IMG/VR virus record: IMGVR_UViG_3300042861_001039
Span: 1 to 21,082 of that record
From: a virus
Length of the DNA: 21,082 nt
Reading direction: 5' to 3' (one strand)
The translations under genes were made by a program, and so were the position numbers. Position 1 is the stretch's first letter, and every line of letters starts with the position of its first letter. Positions 16,279 through 21,082 of the stretch are shown here, piece after piece. The notes below the pieces were generated by a model, which saw nothing but the letters and a program-made list of their open reading frames with translations, searched no databases and was not told where the DNA came from.

Positions 16279-16300
16279 TTTGTCCTATCAATCGGACAAA
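16279..16300 (-). repeat. Hairpin repeat copy 1 (inverted orientation)
   Basis: Arms TTTGTCC and GGACAAA around TATCAATC. The loop is the reverse complement of the one in the right-hand copies, so this copy is in minus orientation. It lies in non-coding low-complexity DNA, preceded by CACCCCTTCGCC. Confidence 0.9.
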
Positions 16301-16313
16301 TACAAAGGGCGCT

Positions 16314-16337
16314 ATTTGTCCTATCAATCGGACAAAT
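16314..16337 (-). repeat. Hairpin repeat copy 2 (inverted orientation)
   Basis: Full 8-base arms ATTTGTCC and GGACAAAT around TATCAATC, 13 bases from copy 1. It follows ACAAAGGGCGCT, a word also found in coding DNA near 17047. Confidence 0.9.
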
Positions 16338-16477: not shown

Positions 16478-16507
16478 TTGCATATATAAAGTTTTATACT
16501 ATCTTTG
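16478..16507 (+). promoter_or_regulatory. Rightward promoter (TTG-N19-TATCTTTG) of the Lys/Ala-tail gene
   Basis: TTG at 16478-16480, a 19-base spacer, and TATCTTTG at 16500-16507, in plus orientation, preceded by a T-run (TTTTTTTT). It is a full Bacteroidota consensus and begins the rightward gene set. The ATG of the first long gene lies 80 bases downstream, leaving a leader of about 75 bases. Confidence 0.8.
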
Positions 16508-16587: not shown

Positions 16588-17304
16588 ATGTCAAACTCAG
16601 TTAAATTAACGGCTTCGGAAAAGAAAAGCCTATTTGTTTTGGAATTGTCAACTATCACAAAGGCTATCTTAGATAGTGACCTTAAGCGCTTTGAAAACAG
16701 CGAAGTTCAAGCCCGATATGTAGCGAAGGCGCATTTGTGGTTGAAAAGCGCTTCGGGCAAAGCCTTAATGGTTCGCGAAAAATGCGGAATTCGCGAAGTA
16801 ATAAAGGGCAATTTTCCTTTTGATAAAACGCAATATTATCATTTATTGGAATTTGCGAAATTCGCGGAAGCAAAGCCCGAACTTTTGAAGCAATGGAAAA
16901 AGGAAGTATGCGCTATCAAGGAACAAAAGGTTAGCATTGCCCTAAGTACCACTGAATATGTGAAGTACTACAAAGAAGCCACATTGGAAGGCGAAGGCGA
17001 AGGGAAGCCAAAGCCAAAGGGCAAAGAGAAGGCGCTTTTCTCATTCACAAAGGGCGCTATTTCCGTTCGAATGATAGGAGGCGAATTGAAAGGTAAAGCG
17101 AAGTTAAGCGAAGTGATAAGCGCCCTTGAAGAAGTGAAGGCAATGCTCGAAGCCCTAACGAAGCCAAAGGCTACAGCGAAGGCTACAGCGAAGCCAAAGC
17201 CAAAGCCAACAGCGAAGGCAAAGGCGAAGGCAAAGGCGAAGGCGTTAACTATGCAAGACGTTGTAATTCAAGAAGAGGTTGAATTGATAGATTCACCTTT
17301 CTAA
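16588..17304 (+). CDS. Putative DNA-binding protein with histone-H1-like Lys/Ala/Pro tail
   Basis: A 238-residue protein. An N-terminal helical domain covers about 1-130, with a possible helix-turn-helix-like stretch around IREVIKGNFPFDKTQYYHLL. An EGEGEGKPKPKGKEK linker at 134-148 leads to a second small domain, 149-190. A Lys/Ala/Pro tail at 191-219 (KPKATAKATAKPKPKPTAKA onward) precedes a short acidic end, EEVELIDSPF. Such tails are found in histone-H1-like and other nucleic-acid-binding bacterial proteins. I do not recognise the domain. It is first behind the rightward promoter and alone before two terminators. Much of the gene, not only the tail, is made of the DNA words GCGAAG, AAAGCC and GGCGCT that also fill the flanking non-coding DNA. 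Confidence 0.55.
   Translation: MSNSVKLTASEKKSLFVLELSTITKAILDSDLKRFENSEVQARYVAKAHLWLKSASGKALMVREKCGIREVIKGNFPFDKTQYYHLLEFAKFAEAKPELLKQWKKEVCAIKEQKVSIALSTTEYVKYYKEATLEGEGEGKPKPKGKEKALFSFTKGAISVRMIGGELKGKAKLSEVISALEEVKAMLEALTKPKATAKATAKPKPKPTAKAKAKAKAKALTMQDVVIQEEVELIDSPF
17155..17245 (+). repeat. Imperfect GCGAAGGC/AAAGCC tandem tract inside the gene
   Basis: Short, shifted units such as GGCTACAGCGAA, GCCAAAGCCAAA and GCGAAGGCAAAG follow each other and encode the Lys/Ala/Pro tail. The same words recur outside the gene (17301-17330, 17395-17430, 17515-17565). Confidence 0.7.
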
Positions 17305-17323
17305 GCGAAGCCCCAAAGCAAAG

Positions 17324-17357
17324 CAAAGCCCCTTTTCGAAGGGGCTTTGTTTGTTTA
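17324..17357 (+). terminator. Rho-independent terminator with TTCG loop
   Basis: An 11-bp perfect stem (CAAAGCCCCTT, 17324-17334, with AAGGGGCTTTG, 17339-17349) is capped by TTCG and followed by TTTGTTT. It begins 20 bases after the stop at 17304. UUCG is an extra-stable tetraloop. Confidence 0.85.
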
Positions 17358-17358
17358 C

Positions 17359-17385
17359 AGCCCCTTTTGATAGGGGCTATTTTAT
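17359..17385 (+). terminator. Second terminator hairpin in tandem
   Basis: A 7-bp stem, AGCCCCT (17359-17365) and AGGGGCT (17372-17378), with loop TTTGAT is followed by ATTTTAT. It sits 10 bases after the first terminator. Together they insulate the downstream cassettes from the 16588 gene. Confidence 0.65.
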
Positions 17386-17600
17386 GCAACAAAGCGAAGC
17401 CTTAAACGAAGCCCCAAAGCGCCCCAATAAACGAAGCAAAGGGGCGAAGGTGTACCTATATACCAAAGGGCTAATTTAAGGCGCTTAAAAGGGCTGTAAT
17501 GAAGCCAAAGGAAAGACGAAGCGAAGCGCGAAGCGAAGCGAAGCCCAAAGGCGAAGCGCAAAGGTATAAAGCGCAAAATTTATATCGCAAATTGATTCGG
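17386..17600. other. Gene-free low-complexity stretch between terminators and the cassettes
   Basis: Purine-rich words in plus orientation (GCGAAGCCTTAAACGAAGCC, GCGAAGCGCGAAGCGAAG), with no start context. A long minus frame, 17382-17576, is only the complement of these repeats. No TAnnTTTG box was found here, although a gene starts at 17639. Confidence 0.5.
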
Positions 17601-17622
17601 TTTGTCCGATTGATAGGACAAA
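17601..17622 (+). repeat. Hairpin repeat copy 3
   Basis: Arms TTTGTCC and GGACAAA around GATTGATA, forward orientation. It ends 16 bases before the ATG at 17639, with CCAAAACTTACAAAT between. Confidence 0.9.
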
Positions 17623-17638
17623 TCCAAAACTTACAAAT

Positions 17639-17827
17639 ATGAAATTCATTTTATTCTTAAACCTGTTTTTCAGTGGGCAAATTGCCTTGGACTCTGATAA
17701 TCTTTATACGCTACGAAGCGAAGGCGAAGTATACGAACACGTTTGTTATGGTGAAATAATGAACTACCTTGAAGCAAATGAGTTCGTTTATAACGATAAT
17801 CTTTGCGAATGTGGTGAACTTGAATGA
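17639..17827 (+). CDS. Small acidic protein of unknown function (62 aa)
   Basis: The product begins MKFILFLNLFFSGQIALDSD and ends in NDNLCECGELE. It has a hydrophobic first 14 residues that might be a short signal or anchor, then an acidic body with Tyr, Asn and three Cys in C...C-E-C. The A/T-rich leader with a hairpin repeat upstream matches the other cassette genes, which supports it. No promoter box is visible directly upstream. CGAAGCGAAGGCGAAG within the gene is a leftover of the neighbouring low-complexity words. A strong promoter lies after its stop. Function unknown; the short length leaves some doubt that it is real. Confidence 0.5.
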   Translation: MKFILFLNLFFSGQIALDSDNLYTLRSEGEVYEHVCYGEIMNYLEANEFVYNDNLCECGELE

Positions 17828-17872
17828 ACATAACTCGAACACAATTCTCAGACAAAATAGTTTGTACTTTCC

Positions 17873-17903
17873 TTGCGAGAGCCATAACTTTGTCGTATCT
17901 TTG
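17873..17903 (+). promoter_or_regulatory. Rightward promoter (TTG-N20-TATCTTTG) of the cassette array
   Basis: TTG at 17873-17875, a 20-base spacer and TATCTTTG at 17896-17903 form a full Bacteroidota promoter. A second box, TAACTTTG, lies just before it at 17885-17892. The next ATG is at 18020, leaving a leader of about 110 bases that contains hairpin copy 4. No other full promoter was found to the right, so it may drive all cassettes to the window end. Confidence 0.8.
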
Positions 17904-17964
17904 CGGAGTTATTGGGAGTCATAGTAGATTGCCTCGGAAAATAACACTATCAATTTGGAAAACG

Positions 17965-17988
17965 ATTTGTCCGATTGATAGGACAAAT
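17965..17988 (+). repeat. Hairpin repeat copy 4
   Basis: Full arms ATTTGTCC and GGACAAAT around GATTGATA, in the leader of the 68-aa membrane protein, 31 bases before its ATG. Confidence 0.9.
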
Positions 17989-18019
17989 GAAATAGTAAAC
18001 AATTAAACAATCAATAGTT

Positions 18020-18226
18020 ATGGAAAAAGTTCTTAAACCTTTTGTAGTGCTAACCACTTATGTAGTGTTGTATGCGCTCACGTATTCACTAATTAGCGCT
18101 GTTGTAAGTGCGCTGTTTTGGATAAACTATTTAGACGTAGTGCAGTCAAACGCTATGAAAACTATTTTAGTTCTATTCTCAATTGCTCATTCTATCTATG
18201 CGCTTGTCGTTGAATGTGAAAAATAA
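18020..18226 (+). CDS. Small two-helix membrane protein (68 aa)
   Basis: A 68-residue membrane protein. The first hydrophobic part, about 7-36 (FVVLTTYVVLYALTYSLISA and on), is followed by a loop, NYLDVVQSNAMK, and a second helix at 46-64 (KTILVLFSIAHSIYALVV). It ends in ECEK. The ATG is behind AACAATCAATAGTT, the usual A/T-rich leader. The last base of its stop is the first base of hairpin copy 5. It is not clearly a holin and is far from the lysin. Small inner-membrane proteins among early phage genes are often involved in superinfection exclusion or host takeover, but here that is only a possibility. Confidence 0.6.
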   Translation: MEKVLKPFVVLTTYVVLYALTYSLISAVVSALFWINYLDVVQSNAMKTILVLFSIAHSIYALVVECEK

Positions 18227-18249
18227 TTTGTCCGATTGATAGGACAAAT
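18226..18249 (+). repeat. Hairpin repeat copy 5
   Basis: Full arms ATTTGTCC and GGACAAAT around GATTGATA. It starts on the last base of the upstream TAA and is followed by the leader CTTAAAATCAGTAAAAC and then AATCAATTTATATG. Confidence 0.9.
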
Positions 18250-18282
18250 CTTAAAATCAGTAAAACTTAAAAATCAATTTAT

Positions 18283-18699
18283 ATGTCAGAGAGAATTAAA
18301 TCTTGGGTGGGCTGTTATGTCCGCATAAAACGAAAGTACATTGTAGCGATTCCCGATTACGATGACAACAATTGGGGTAGTACACACTTAGAAGGAACAC
18401 CATTCGACCAATTCTTTGATGATGGCGAACTTACTTCGCAGTTGTACAATGACGATAGTCTTGACTTTGGTTCGCGAGTCCCACAAAATTGGGTTGGTCG
18501 GGTTCACGCTCAAGTATATGGTACTGAAATTTTGCCTTCAAACTATGCGATTACACAGCCGAAAAATATGCTTGTCATTGACGGCTTTCCCGCTCAAGGT
18601 TGGCTTTATGTGTGGGAAGCAGATTACTTTGAAGTTGTCAAAGAGAAAACCATTTCAGTAACCAAGTGGGAAGTTGACGAAGAATTTACTAACCAATAA
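18283..18699 (+). CDS. Acidic cassette protein, paralogue A (138 aa)
   Basis: A 138-residue protein beginning MSERIKSWVGCYVRIKRKYI and ending TKWEVDEEFTNQ. It is rich in Asp, Trp and Tyr (PDYDDNNWGS, QFFDDGELTSQLYNDDS), predicted beta, with no membrane segment. It shares its start (MSE-[RK]-IKS), the line FEVV before the end and the final W-x-x-D-[ED]-x-F-x-NQ with the protein at 19121-19465, so the two are paralogues. Followed 12 bases later by the 116-aa gene without a hairpin between. I do not recognise the family. Confidence 0.6.
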   Translation: MSERIKSWVGCYVRIKRKYIVAIPDYDDNNWGSTHLEGTPFDQFFDDGELTSQLYNDDSLDFGSRVPQNWVGRVHAQVYGTEILPSNYAITQPKNMLVIDGFPAQGWLYVWEADYFEVVKEKTISVTKWEVDEEFTNQ

Positions 18700-18711
18700 A
18701 AATCAATCGAT

Positions 18712-19062
18712 ATGAAATTCATTTCTTCACAAGATGAAGCCGCTATTGAGGCGCACTTAAGTCGTGAGAACGCACCCGAAAATGAGGTCTTGTACTCTTG
18801 CGGTGGTGTGTATATGCACGGCAAGTTACAAGATGACATTGGCTATGACATACCAATTTTATTAGACGATGATATGCAAAGGGGCATAAACATTTGCGAG
18901 GTTCAATTCCCTGACGGAGAAGTCAAGTTGGCTATTGCCTTTATTTGGGAGACCAAGATGAAGATGAACTCGTGGGGTGTGCGTGGGCTTATTGTCTACG
19001 GCAATGAACCCGACCTTGATTACGTTCGTGAGTGTTATTCTAAAAAAGCAGAACACCTGTAA
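18712..19062 (+). CDS. Acidic cassette protein (116 aa)
   Basis: Begins MKFISSQDEAAIEAHLSREN, contains VYMHGKLQDDIGYDIPILLD and VKLAIAFIWETKMKMNSWGV, and ends in YVRECYSKKAEHL. Mixed alpha/beta with alternating acidic and hydrophobic residues; no signal or membrane segment. It follows the 138-aa gene after 12 bases (AAATCAATCGAT leader) and precedes hairpin copy 6. It therefore closes a two-gene cassette whose next counterpart (19121 and 19477) repeats the layout. Not recognised. Confidence 0.55.
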   Translation: MKFISSQDEAAIEAHLSRENAPENEVLYSCGGVYMHGKLQDDIGYDIPILLDDDMQRGINICEVQFPDGEVKLAIAFIWETKMKMNSWGVRGLIVYGNEPDLDYVRECYSKKAEHL

Positions 19063-19066
19063 ACTA

Positions 19067-19088
19067 ATGTCCGATTGATAGGACAAAT
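19067..19088 (+). repeat. Hairpin repeat copy 6 (shortened left arm)
   Basis: Left arm ATGTCC instead of TTTGTCC, loop GATTGATA, right arm GGACAAAT; only 5 bp (TGTCC/GGACA) can pair. It starts 4 bases after the stop of the upstream gene. Following leader: ATTCAATTCAGTAAAAC and AATCAATTCATATG. Confidence 0.85.
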
Positions 19089-19120
19089 ATTCAATTCAGT
19101 AAAACTTAAAATCAATTCAT

Positions 19121-19465
19121 ATGTCAGAAAAAATCAAATCATTTTCAGGTAGACACGTTCGTGTAAGACTTGAGTTTTTAGACGAGTGCGGACAAGTAAA
19201 AACGTCGAGGTTAAGACATTACCACGACATTGACTTTTCACAAAAGATACTCGAAGTGTCGGCTGAATTTTATGGTGTATATATGGATCTTTTGTACGGA
19301 GAGACCATTGAAACGGCGCTCATTCAATCGATTGAACCCGAACATTACATTTCATTCTACGACTTAGATAAGCACCCTCGACCTGTGTTCTTTAACGCTA
19401 ACCTTTTCGAAGTAGTTAGACAGGAATACCATTGGGTGGCAGACGATAGATTTAATAACCAATAA
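19121..19465 (+). CDS. Acidic cassette protein, paralogue B (114 aa)
   Basis: A 114-residue protein beginning MSEKIKSFSGRHVRVRLEFL and ending HWVADDRFNNQ. The conserved ends with the protein at 18283-18699 (MSE-x-IKS; NLFEVV and W-x-x-D-x-x-F-x-NQ) mark it as a paralogue, with the middle diverged and shortened. Beta-rich, Tyr/His/Asp-rich (RHYHDIDFSQKILEV). Leader and start match paralogue A, including hairpin and AATCAATTCATATGTCAGA. The identity of leader and N-terminus argues that the cassette duplicated with its leader. Function unknown. Confidence 0.6.
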   Translation: MSEKIKSFSGRHVRVRLEFLDECGQVKTSRLRHYHDIDFSQKILEVSAEFYGVYMDLLYGETIETALIQSIEPEHYISFYDLDKHPRPVFFNANLFEVVRQEYHWVADDRFNNQ

Positions 19466-19476
19466 CTTAAATTTAT

Positions 19477-19842
19477 ATGAGCAATTTAGCAAGATTCTTA
19501 TCGCCCTATATTGAGACAATTGAGTTGGACAATATCATTGGGGCTGTCGTGGAAAATAGGCTCAAGCAGGGGCTTGTACTATGGATTGGTCACTCTAAAT
19601 ATGTAGAGATATTGTGCGAGAAACACACATTCGATATGTCAAATTGGTCTGAGGTGTCAGCAATAAGCGACGTGTCGTTTGGGTATAATTATCATTTTAC
19701 GCACGGAGAAGATGAGTTGTCTTCGCCTGAATACGATACGCTTCTTATCCTTGAGGATAACGGCTACGATGATGTGGTGTTGGCGCATTACAAGTTAAAG
19801 GACAATGACCTTGAAAGTCTCGTGGGCTATTTTAGAATATAA
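19477..19842 (+). CDS. Acidic cassette protein (121 aa)
   Basis: Begins MSNLARFLSPYIETIELDNI, contains VLWIGHSKYVEILCEKHTFD and YDTLLILEDNGYDDVVLAHY, and ends in LESLVGYFRI. Alpha/beta, acidic, no membrane segment; possibly partly globular with a beta sheet in the C-terminal half. It follows paralogue B after 11 bases (CTTAAATTTAT) and its stop (19840-19842) is directly followed by hairpin copy 7. Not recognised. Confidence 0.55.
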   Translation: MSNLARFLSPYIETIELDNIIGAVVENRLKQGLVLWIGHSKYVEILCEKHTFDMSNWSEVSAISDVSFGYNYHFTHGEDELSSPEYDTLLILEDNGYDDVVLAHYKLKDNDLESLVGYFRI

Positions 19843-19864
19843 ATGTCCGATTGATAGGACAAAT
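19843..19864 (+). repeat. Hairpin repeat copy 7 (shortened left arm)
   Basis: ATGTCC, GATTGATA, GGACAAAT, immediately after the upstream TAA (19840-19842). Following leader: ATTAAAACTTAAATTC and AATTATATG. Confidence 0.85.
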
Positions 19865-19886
19865 ATTAAAACTTAAATTCAATTAT

Positions 19887-20258
19887 ATGCAGTATCCATT
19901 TAACGAGGGTGATACCTATTACACCTTTGACGAAAAAAATAAACTTATTGAGTCCTGTTGGGACGACCAAAGCGAGGTGTTGTATAGCGAAGACAAAAAG
20001 TATTTCACCGCTACACCCATAACAAGAGATGAGTTCTCAGACCTATGCGATTTAGGCGAGGAAGATGTGTGTGATATTCCCACTCGTTACTACGAAGATA
20101 AATGGGGTATGTGGTGTGAGTATGGGTGTGTCTTAAAGTGCGGTGGGCATACACTTGTCTTGTGTGTTTACACAGAGGTTAACACCGAAGGCTATGAGTT
20201 TAGACCAAGCGAACGTAACTACTCAGTACTAACTCTTAAACAAAAAATGTCCGATTGA
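19887..20258 (+). CDS. Acidic cassette protein (123 aa)
   Basis: Started at the ATG at 19887 (MQYPFNEGDTYYTFDEKNKL), because the upstream in-frame ATG at 19851 is not behind a leader and lies in the hairpin. 19887 has the same A/T-rich context as the other genes. The product is rich in Asp, Glu, Tyr and Cys: LCDLGEEDVCDIPTRYYEDK, WCEYGCVLKCGGHTLVLCVY. It ends in LKQKMSD, where the last codons ATG-TCC-GAT and the stop TGA lie inside hairpin copy 8, so the coding end and the hairpin overlap. The Cys set (C..C..C) could hold metal. Not recognised. Confidence 0.55.
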   Translation: MQYPFNEGDTYYTFDEKNKLIESCWDDQSEVLYSEDKKYFTATPITRDEFSDLCDLGEEDVCDIPTRYYEDKWGMWCEYGCVLKCGGHTLVLCVYTEVNTEGYEFRPSERNYSVLTLKQKMSD

Positions 20259-20268
20259 TAGGACAAAT
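20247..20268 (+). repeat. Hairpin repeat copy 8 (overlaps a coding end)
   Basis: ATGTCC, GATTGATA, GGACAAAT. The preceding gene reads through ATGTCCGATTGA and stops in the loop. Leader after it: CTTAAATCAGTAAATTTT and AATCAATTCATATG. Confidence 0.85.
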
Positions 20269-20468: not shown

Positions 20469-20512
20469 CAGCACCGACATTAAAAATGTAAACAATTAAA
20501 CAATCAATTCAT

Positions 20513-21082
20513 ATGTCAGAAAAAACAAATGATGTACAGGTCGAAGACTTAGTAACCCTGTATGGCGACAATGGCGAGGCGCCACGTTCGCAATGTAAAA
20601 TGTTCACTATCGGTGTGTACAAAGATGAGTACTACCACGTGGACGATGATAACGCGTACCGACTTCAGTCGGGTGAGATTTGTCATCGAGAAGATGACGA
20701 TAACGAGATATACGAAACCGTATGCGGTGACCGATTCCACACCGACGAGCAGGAGGAATTGGAAATTGTGTGGTTAGATGTCGACGATTGCTATGCCTAC
20801 TCTTGCAATTGCACCTATGGCTACGTCACGTTTCATCACGAGGGTTACTTCTTAGATGACAATGACTATGTCGAGTGCGATGGTCAGTACTACATTAACG
20901 AGCGCATAGCCAACTACCACAACGTGTACTACTACGATTCGGTAGGCGAGTATCGCCACGTTGACGATGCACCCGACGATGATTGTGACGATGATGATGA
21001 AGATGAAATCATCAATGTATATGACGACCCCGACAATACGGACTACGTGCATAGTTACCACACCAATCCCGACAGACGTTGG
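20513..21082 (+). CDS. Tyr/Asp-rich acidic protein, N-terminal part (runs off the right edge)
   Basis: The frame is open from the ATG at 20513 to the end (190 codons, no stop). The leader TAAACAATTAAACAATCAA and start ATGTCAGAAAAAA resemble those of the other cassettes, but no hairpin precedes it. Composition is extreme: Asp/Glu near 30 percent and many Tyr, with repeated Y-x-x-D-D-x-x-Y elements and several Cys (CYAYSCNCTYGY, VECDGQYYINERIANY, then APDDDCDDDDEDEI). It ends in SYHTNPDRRW. The pattern reminds me of proteins that precede or form the N-terminus of phage amidoligase-type ATP-grasp enzymes. That cannot be tested within the window. Confidence 0.6.
   Translation, partial: MSEKTNDVQVEDLVTLYGDNGEAPRSQCKMFTIGVYKDEYYHVDDDNAYRLQSGEICHREDDDNEIYETVCGDRFHTDEQEELEIVWLDVDDCYAYSCNCTYGYVTFHHEGYFLDDNDYVECDGQYYINERIANYHNVYYYDSVGEYRHVDDAPDDDCDDDDEDEIINVYDDPDNTDYVHSYHTNPDRRW

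Follow-up and report, generated by a model that had tools for sequence, protein, structure and literature searches.

What purpose is served by a short, almost invariant inverted repeat that recurs between the small rightward genes of a virus? The question is raised by IMG/VR record IMGVR_UViG_3300042861_001039, of which positions 1 to 21,082 were analysed (hereafter the window, 21,082 nucleotides (nt) in full), and the initial annotation of this DNA had suggested an RNA control site, a processing or stabilising hairpin, or a recombination boundary between gene cassettes. We believe that the repeats are probably operators for the helix-turn-helix-like protein encoded by gene 1 of the early operon, and that they probably modulate early transcription in a manner resembling the stoperators of mycobacteriophages; the initial interpretation is partly supported. 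The computed basis for this view is the repeat itself, equivalent sites in relatives, junctions shared with the closest relative (designated L217), the tracking of half-sites by gene 1, and the presence of majority-class sites in coding genes. From these patterns we infer physical binding, recognition by a dimer and a transcriptional effect of the gene-1 protein.

The repeat, TTTGTCCGATTGATAGGACAAA, occurs eight times in the window, with 0 copies in shuffled sequence and a chance expectation of 0. The hairpin first described is real, and to the six plus-strand copies between early genes counted initially must be added two on the minus strand that had been overlooked (Table 1). In the three plus copies where the outer left TT has become AA, the two outer base pairs no longer form, and no change in the other arm restores them. 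As reported, the plus copies stand between a stop codon and the next ATG and often touch the upstream stop, with about 17, 32, 34, 33, 23 and 33 nt from the end of the element to the ATG; one gene does end inside an element, the copy at 20246 comprising its last 13 bases, stop included, rather than 12. The core is a 16-mer of the form GTCC-N8-GGAC with 4 base pairs (bp) per arm. The predicted RNA fold of the hairpin is modest, weak to moderate (z of -2.7, -1.1 and -0.2), and an Rfam search of the window returned no match. Scored in the gene direction for a G+C stem followed by a U-run, 0 of 6 plus copies are terminator-like and none has a T-run, in agreement with the earlier judgement that this is not a normal terminator. 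The leader AATCAAT..ATATG, first described as part of the same arrangement, is real but is a gene leader separate from the element, because it also lies ahead of genes without a hairpin (18697-18714, 20498-20515).

The initial annotation had proposed a search of related phages and a check of the arms for co-variation, and had regarded copies confined to this genome at random positions, or arms changing without compensation, as telling against its proposal. The exact window sequence is indeed confined to the window contig, in that no other meaningful setting was found for it in the viral contigs, isolate phages and genome contigs scanned, among which near-identical records may be missing. The exact 16-mer had only two matches in viral contigs, both within coding-like sequence and of the chance type; scanning genome contigs with an 18-mer yielded two single matches, and isolate phages gave no DNA match. 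At the same time, among 80 early regions fetched via the glutamine-amidotransferase gene and about 40 other contigs, dozens of relatives carry a palindrome of their own at equivalent junctions, GTGTCTTCAAAGACAC in most, and analogous palindromes do stand between unrelated genes in many phages. Most of the 80 early regions have such lineage-specific palindromes (GTGTCTTCAAAGACAC, GTGTCCTCAAGGACAC, GTCTCTTCAAAGAGAC, GTCCGTTTAAACGGAC, TCCGTTATAACGGA, GTGTACACATGTACAC, AGTCTGTTCGAACAGACT and GAGAGTTCAAACTCTC), and a repeated palindrome was not seen in a few. Both arms vary between lineages with the palindrome retained; such paired changes bear out the co-variation expected between lineages, and the outer changes within the window copies do not. 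The palindromes number up to about 15 per genome, some of them in coding genes, and an element lies upstream of gene 1 in 51 of 64 relative loci. In the nearest phage-collection record, MW202828 (a circular 60.85-kb podovirus genome, Manatee Spring), 14 copies of GTGTCGTTAACGACAC all fall within the rightward early region, and the homologue of gene 17639 in another relative, L147, is preceded by the palindrome of that relative's own lineage. The window element has copies both at the junctions of early cistrons and in the divergent region upstream of gene 1, and its 16-bp core has inverted half-sites; in these respects it fits the family.

The closest relative found, L217 (TerL 80% identical), has four copies of GTCTGTTCAAACAGAC, with the centre in either orientation, and two of them flank a 72%-identical homologue of gene 18020 at the same positions relative to promoter motif, ATG and stop as copies 2 and 3 of the window. 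The surroundings align and the element differs; thus, the site changed while its neighbourhood stayed. The genes that follow the 18020 homologue are different in the two phages, and in the more distant L011 (TerL 30%) homologues of 18020, 20301 and 20513 lie side by side with no element between them. Gene content between elements therefore varies among the three, and the sites sit where gene content turns over, without any implication that they cause the turnover. The earlier suggestion of a boundary at which cassettes are shuffled by recombination, a role also proposed for T4-type mobile regulatory cassettes, is supported in so far as the element sits at junctions of differing gene content, and recombination at them is possible. 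It would also be in keeping with the paralogy of 18283 and 19121, by which a unit may have been duplicated, and with an open reading frame (ORF) in MW202828 that reads through an element into an amidoligase gene. As the function of the repeat we nonetheless consider it unlikely: copies inside TerL and a helicase-like gene mark no cassette borders, short identical sequences may recombine whatever their function, and the tracking by gene 1 would be left unexplained. The MW202828 (L130) frame, annotated as a 574-amino-acid ORF at 45925-47649, crosses the palindrome at 46522 and is apparently a fusion of two units.

Does the element act as DNA or as RNA? In many relatives the majority 16-mer lies letter-perfect inside the TerL gene with neighbouring codons varying, and majority-class coding copies show neither orientation bias (61:55) nor flank pairing. 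Such copies sit in coding genes whichever way they point, and their flanks do not pair; the core therefore behaves as a DNA site and not primarily as an RNA one. Majority-class sites are enriched between genes (180 of 296, though 84% of the sequence is coding). The TerL copy lies at about +234 (L013, L015, L017 and others), where it encodes CLQRH, and antisense copies of the same 16-mer occur in a conserved helicase-like gene of several genomes (for example L117 538, L118 8761, L127 3758, L125 2945).

The competing view is of a hairpin in the polycistronic early mRNA, a 3'-end stabiliser or processing site read by an RNA-binding protein or nuclease. Plus-strand copies between cistrons would suit such a hairpin, as would the orientation of intergenic copies with the next gene (159:21), and its best case lies in the relatives. 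There, a strict descriptor for the type III hammerhead ribozyme finds matches in 64 of the 80 early regions, all listed ones on the coding strand (for example L137 5162-5215 and L143 3318-3368, with 62 further), and none in shuffles, in the window or in MW202828; the one tested against Rfam scored 23.8 bits, where the threshold is 48.5. Many follow the palindrome directly and precede the next ATG. At 54 of 204 intergenic sites a hammerhead follows within 30 nt, and the flanks of these 54 sites covary, positions -2/+18 being paired in 48 of the 54 and in at most 36 in shuffles. No description of this palindrome-plus-hammerhead arrangement was found in the literature searched, which was limited in extent. 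Neither the flank extension nor a ribozyme occurs in the window or MW202828, and the backing for an RNA hairpin role appears confined to the relatives carrying hammerheads. The uncompensated arm changes in the window and the coding copies in both orientations also speak against the hairpin, as does the invariance of the arms among copies of one genome, since a mere stem would drift. We therefore regard it as an improbable explanation of the element. Of the RNA roles first proposed, the processing or stabilising hairpin finds backing in the hammerhead-carrying relatives and not in the ribozyme-free window, and the RNA control site, as a primary role, is not supported in view of these observations and of the tracking described below; what survives is a shared, cis-acting early-gene control site, probably read by a phage protein.

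That protein is likely to be the product of gene 1, which is present in nearly all early regions examined and was not found in L011. AlphaFold models (mean pLDDT, the predicted local distance difference test, of 87 for L160 and 82 for the window protein) place a helix-turn-helix-like pair within an N-terminal domain made of helices and show an alpha/beta domain at the C-terminus, and four uncharacterised viral proteins match the gene-1 model. The half-site sequence apparently changes in step with this putative DNA-binding protein. On a common set, element distance correlates with gene-1 distance (r 0.64-0.66) and weakly with the distance of a neighbouring gene, the amidotransferase (r 0.24); a second neighbour, a phrog_17028 regulator, also considered as binder, was rejected, its distance being uncorrelated with the element (-0.07, same set). 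At matched background distance, helix divergence is lower for pairs sharing an element (0.29) than for those whose elements differ (0.59). Across 39 non-redundant combinations, the last residue of the QKSFFYK stretch is Lys or Arg in 33 of 33 cases with C or A at half-site base 5 and in 0 of 6 with G, where it is Asp or Glu four times, His in the window and Leu in L214; of the top-ranked residue-base pairs, the one formed by this residue and base 5 carries the most mutual information. The window, with His in the helix and G at base 5 on its left half-site only, follows the rule that a non-basic residue accompanies G. Contacts of Lys or Arg with G, and of Asp or Glu with C, are ordinary major-groove chemistry. 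The L217 and L209 phages have in common the half-site GTCTGTT and the helix W-F-x-[DE]-L, with gene-1 proteins 20% identical. Loci with a majority-type helix and no exact repeat hold degenerate sites with a variable centre; L161, for example, which has no exact repeated palindrome, has 9 majority-type sites at <=2 mismatches against a control of 0.35.

Two further readings treat the element as DNA. A promoter for a phage RNA polymerase, of the N4-like DNA-hairpin or T7-like kind and one per cistron, would be invariant within a genome and divergent between genomes, and would stand after stops and before ATGs, with some copies in genes, much as observed. We find it very improbable, given that the half-site tracks a helix-turn-helix-like protein, that host-type TATCTTTG -7 motifs lie upstream of some elements instead, and that no RNA polymerase match was obtained in the MW202828 giant virion protein or the larger early proteins scanned. 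The giant virion protein was considered as a candidate polymerase and set aside for want of a family match, though a divergent polymerase could escape such scans. DNA-architectural or partition-type (parS-like) sites are, if anything, slightly less probable still. Palindromes of 16 bp, as many as about 15 in a genome and partly within coding genes, together with one helix-turn-helix-like protein, would be consistent with partition, but in the window, L217 and MW202828 the sites are concentrated in the early region, and none of 51 gene-1 members has a Pfam ParB match (the fold could be missed; ParA was not searched for). As a separate observation, L011, the distant relative in which gene 1 was not found, has five copies of a parS-like palindrome of the TGTTCCACGTGAAACAT type at 1373-2418.

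Several points weigh against operators for the gene-1 protein. Gene 1 can be assigned neither to a named family nor to a homologue of solved structure, and comparison with the PDB and by Foldseek gave no trustworthy match. The combinations behind the base-5 rule are not independent, with at least two separate acidic cases among them. Partial-correlation scans peak also in the gene-1 N-terminus and in the amidotransferase tail; peaks outside the helix mean that lineage effects are present, and the scan was abandoned as a means of pinpointing the recognition helix, for once gaps were treated correctly the N-terminus ranked at least as high. The link to gene 1 accordingly rests on the whole-gene correlation, the matched-distance pairs and the base-5 rule. 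As to the sites, elements upstream of gene 1 lie mostly about 140-210 bp before the promoter motif and not over it, the window has the least symmetrical core in the family, with G at base 5 on one side and T on the other, its 8-nt centre is identical in 8 of 8 copies, which a simple dimer site would not need, and the strong orientation of intergenic majority-class copies noted above is not accounted for by a symmetrical operator.

Nonetheless, the general outline of an operator system can be drawn. The gene-1 protein would bind the palindrome-like double-stranded core plus its flanks, at operator sites in the divergent control region and the early cistron junctions, where it would most likely slow or block transcription and thereby regulate the operon to which it belongs. 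Within this group of flavobacterial podoviruses, every lineage would have a site version of its own, with protein and sites changing together. More tentatively, early control in many relatives may have two layers, a gene-1-type protein on the junction palindromes and a transcribed hairpin before a self-cleaving hammerhead; the transcribed palindrome would cap the upstream mRNA, and the hammerhead just after it would cut the polycistron into separate messages. Taken together, the data suggest that a large group of aquatic phages has a mode of gene control not yet described. If this is true, these mostly uncultured phages would gain a first defined regulatory code; the helix-residue/base-5 rule and about ten half-sites with their proteins make operator-protein co-evolution directly testable. 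Frequent hammerhead ribozymes that apparently score below the Rfam threshold are also exposed in phage early leaders.

Table 1. Features of the window relevant to the repeat element
Feature	Positions	Strand	Remarks
Element copy 1	17601..17622	+	Exact TTTGTCCGATTGATAGGACAAA; core GTCCGATTGATAGGAC; 17 nt before ATG 17639
Element copy 2	17966..17987	+	Exact; downstream of promoter-like TATCTTTG, before gene 18020; L217 positional counterpart GTCTGTTTGAACAGAC
Element copy 3	18227..18248	+	Exact; directly after stop of gene 18020; L217 positional counterpart GTCTGTTCAAACAGAC
Element copy 4	19066..19087	+	Outer left TT to AA; before gene 19121
Element copy 5	19842..19863	+	Outer left TT to AA; overlaps stop of 19477-19842
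Element copy 6	20246..20267	+	Outer left TT to AA; provides stop of 19887-20258
Element copy 7	16279..16300	-	Exact; divergent region between late (-) and early (+) operons
Element copy 8	16315..16336	-	Exact; divergent region; 36 bp from copy 7
Gene 1 of early operon	16588..17304	+	Helix-turn-helix-like protein with C-terminal alpha/beta domain; putative element binder
Bacteroidota-type -7 promoter motif TATCTTTG	16500..16507	+	Before gene 1; consensus match only
-7 promoter motif TATCTTTG	17896..17903	+	Upstream of copy 2; also at matching place in L217
Small gene	18020..18226	+	Flanked by copies 2 and 3; L217 homologue flanked by L217 palindrome
Two-gene unit 18283-18699 + 18712-19062	18283..19062	+	First gene paralogous to 19121
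Two-gene unit 19121-19465 + 19477-19842	19121..19842	+	
Gene between copies 5 and 6	19887..20258	+	Stop inside copy 6

Leftward genes of the window encode TerL, portal, GroEL, GroES-like, endolysin and tail proteins, and the rightward ones are small early genes. Relatives by TerL comprise phages of Flavobacterium, Cellulophaga, Tenacibaculum and Maribacter along with many IMG/VR contigs; no relative was found when gene 1 or gene 18283 of the window served alone as query. The TATCTTTG motif is not enriched across the window overall. Each two-gene unit opens with a paralogue of the other's first gene (E 2e-5), which suggests duplication of a unit. After gene 1, positions 17150-17580 hold GCGAAGC/AAAGCC-rich repeats and strong hairpins, and in L217 another tandem repeat, AAGGTCCT.TGCTGTGC, occupies the corresponding position. 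The acidic N-terminal part of a protein is encoded at 20513-21082; in its L011 homologue an amidoligase-like part seems to precede a class II glutamine amidotransferase.

How does the element compare with known systems? At 22 bp it is far too short for an integron attC. T4-type mobile regulatory cassettes, which combine promoter and terminator, are similar in having repeated stem-loops between small accessory genes of variable content, but here the element has no promoter and no T-run, and its sequence tracks a phage protein. The hairpin promoters of the N4 virion RNA polymerase are also short inverted repeats before early genes; here, in contrast, no polymerase was found in the MW202828 proteins scanned, the copies are far more numerous, and some elements have host-type promoter motifs upstream. 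Type III hammerhead ribozymes (Rfam RF00008; PMC3088659), many of them right after the palindrome in relatives and none in the window, are a neighbouring feature and not the element. The nearest documented analogue, in our view, is the system of cluster A mycobacteriophages such as L5 and Bxb1 (PMC6550527), in which stoperators, 13-bp asymmetric sites read by a monomeric repressor, are present in many copies per genome and mostly oriented with transcription, and in which phage groups differ in their site consensus, in correlation with the distance of the cognate repressor (PMC6550527, PMC9283540). Because cluster A sites are asymmetric and those described here are 16-bp palindromes, the window element is not itself a stoperator; the putative binder is an unrelated, uncharacterised protein, and the likeness lies in the number, orientation and divergence of the sites. 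Orientation with transcription is shared: the six plus copies of the window follow early genes, with two opposite in the divergent region, and in the relatives intergenic copies are oriented 159:21.

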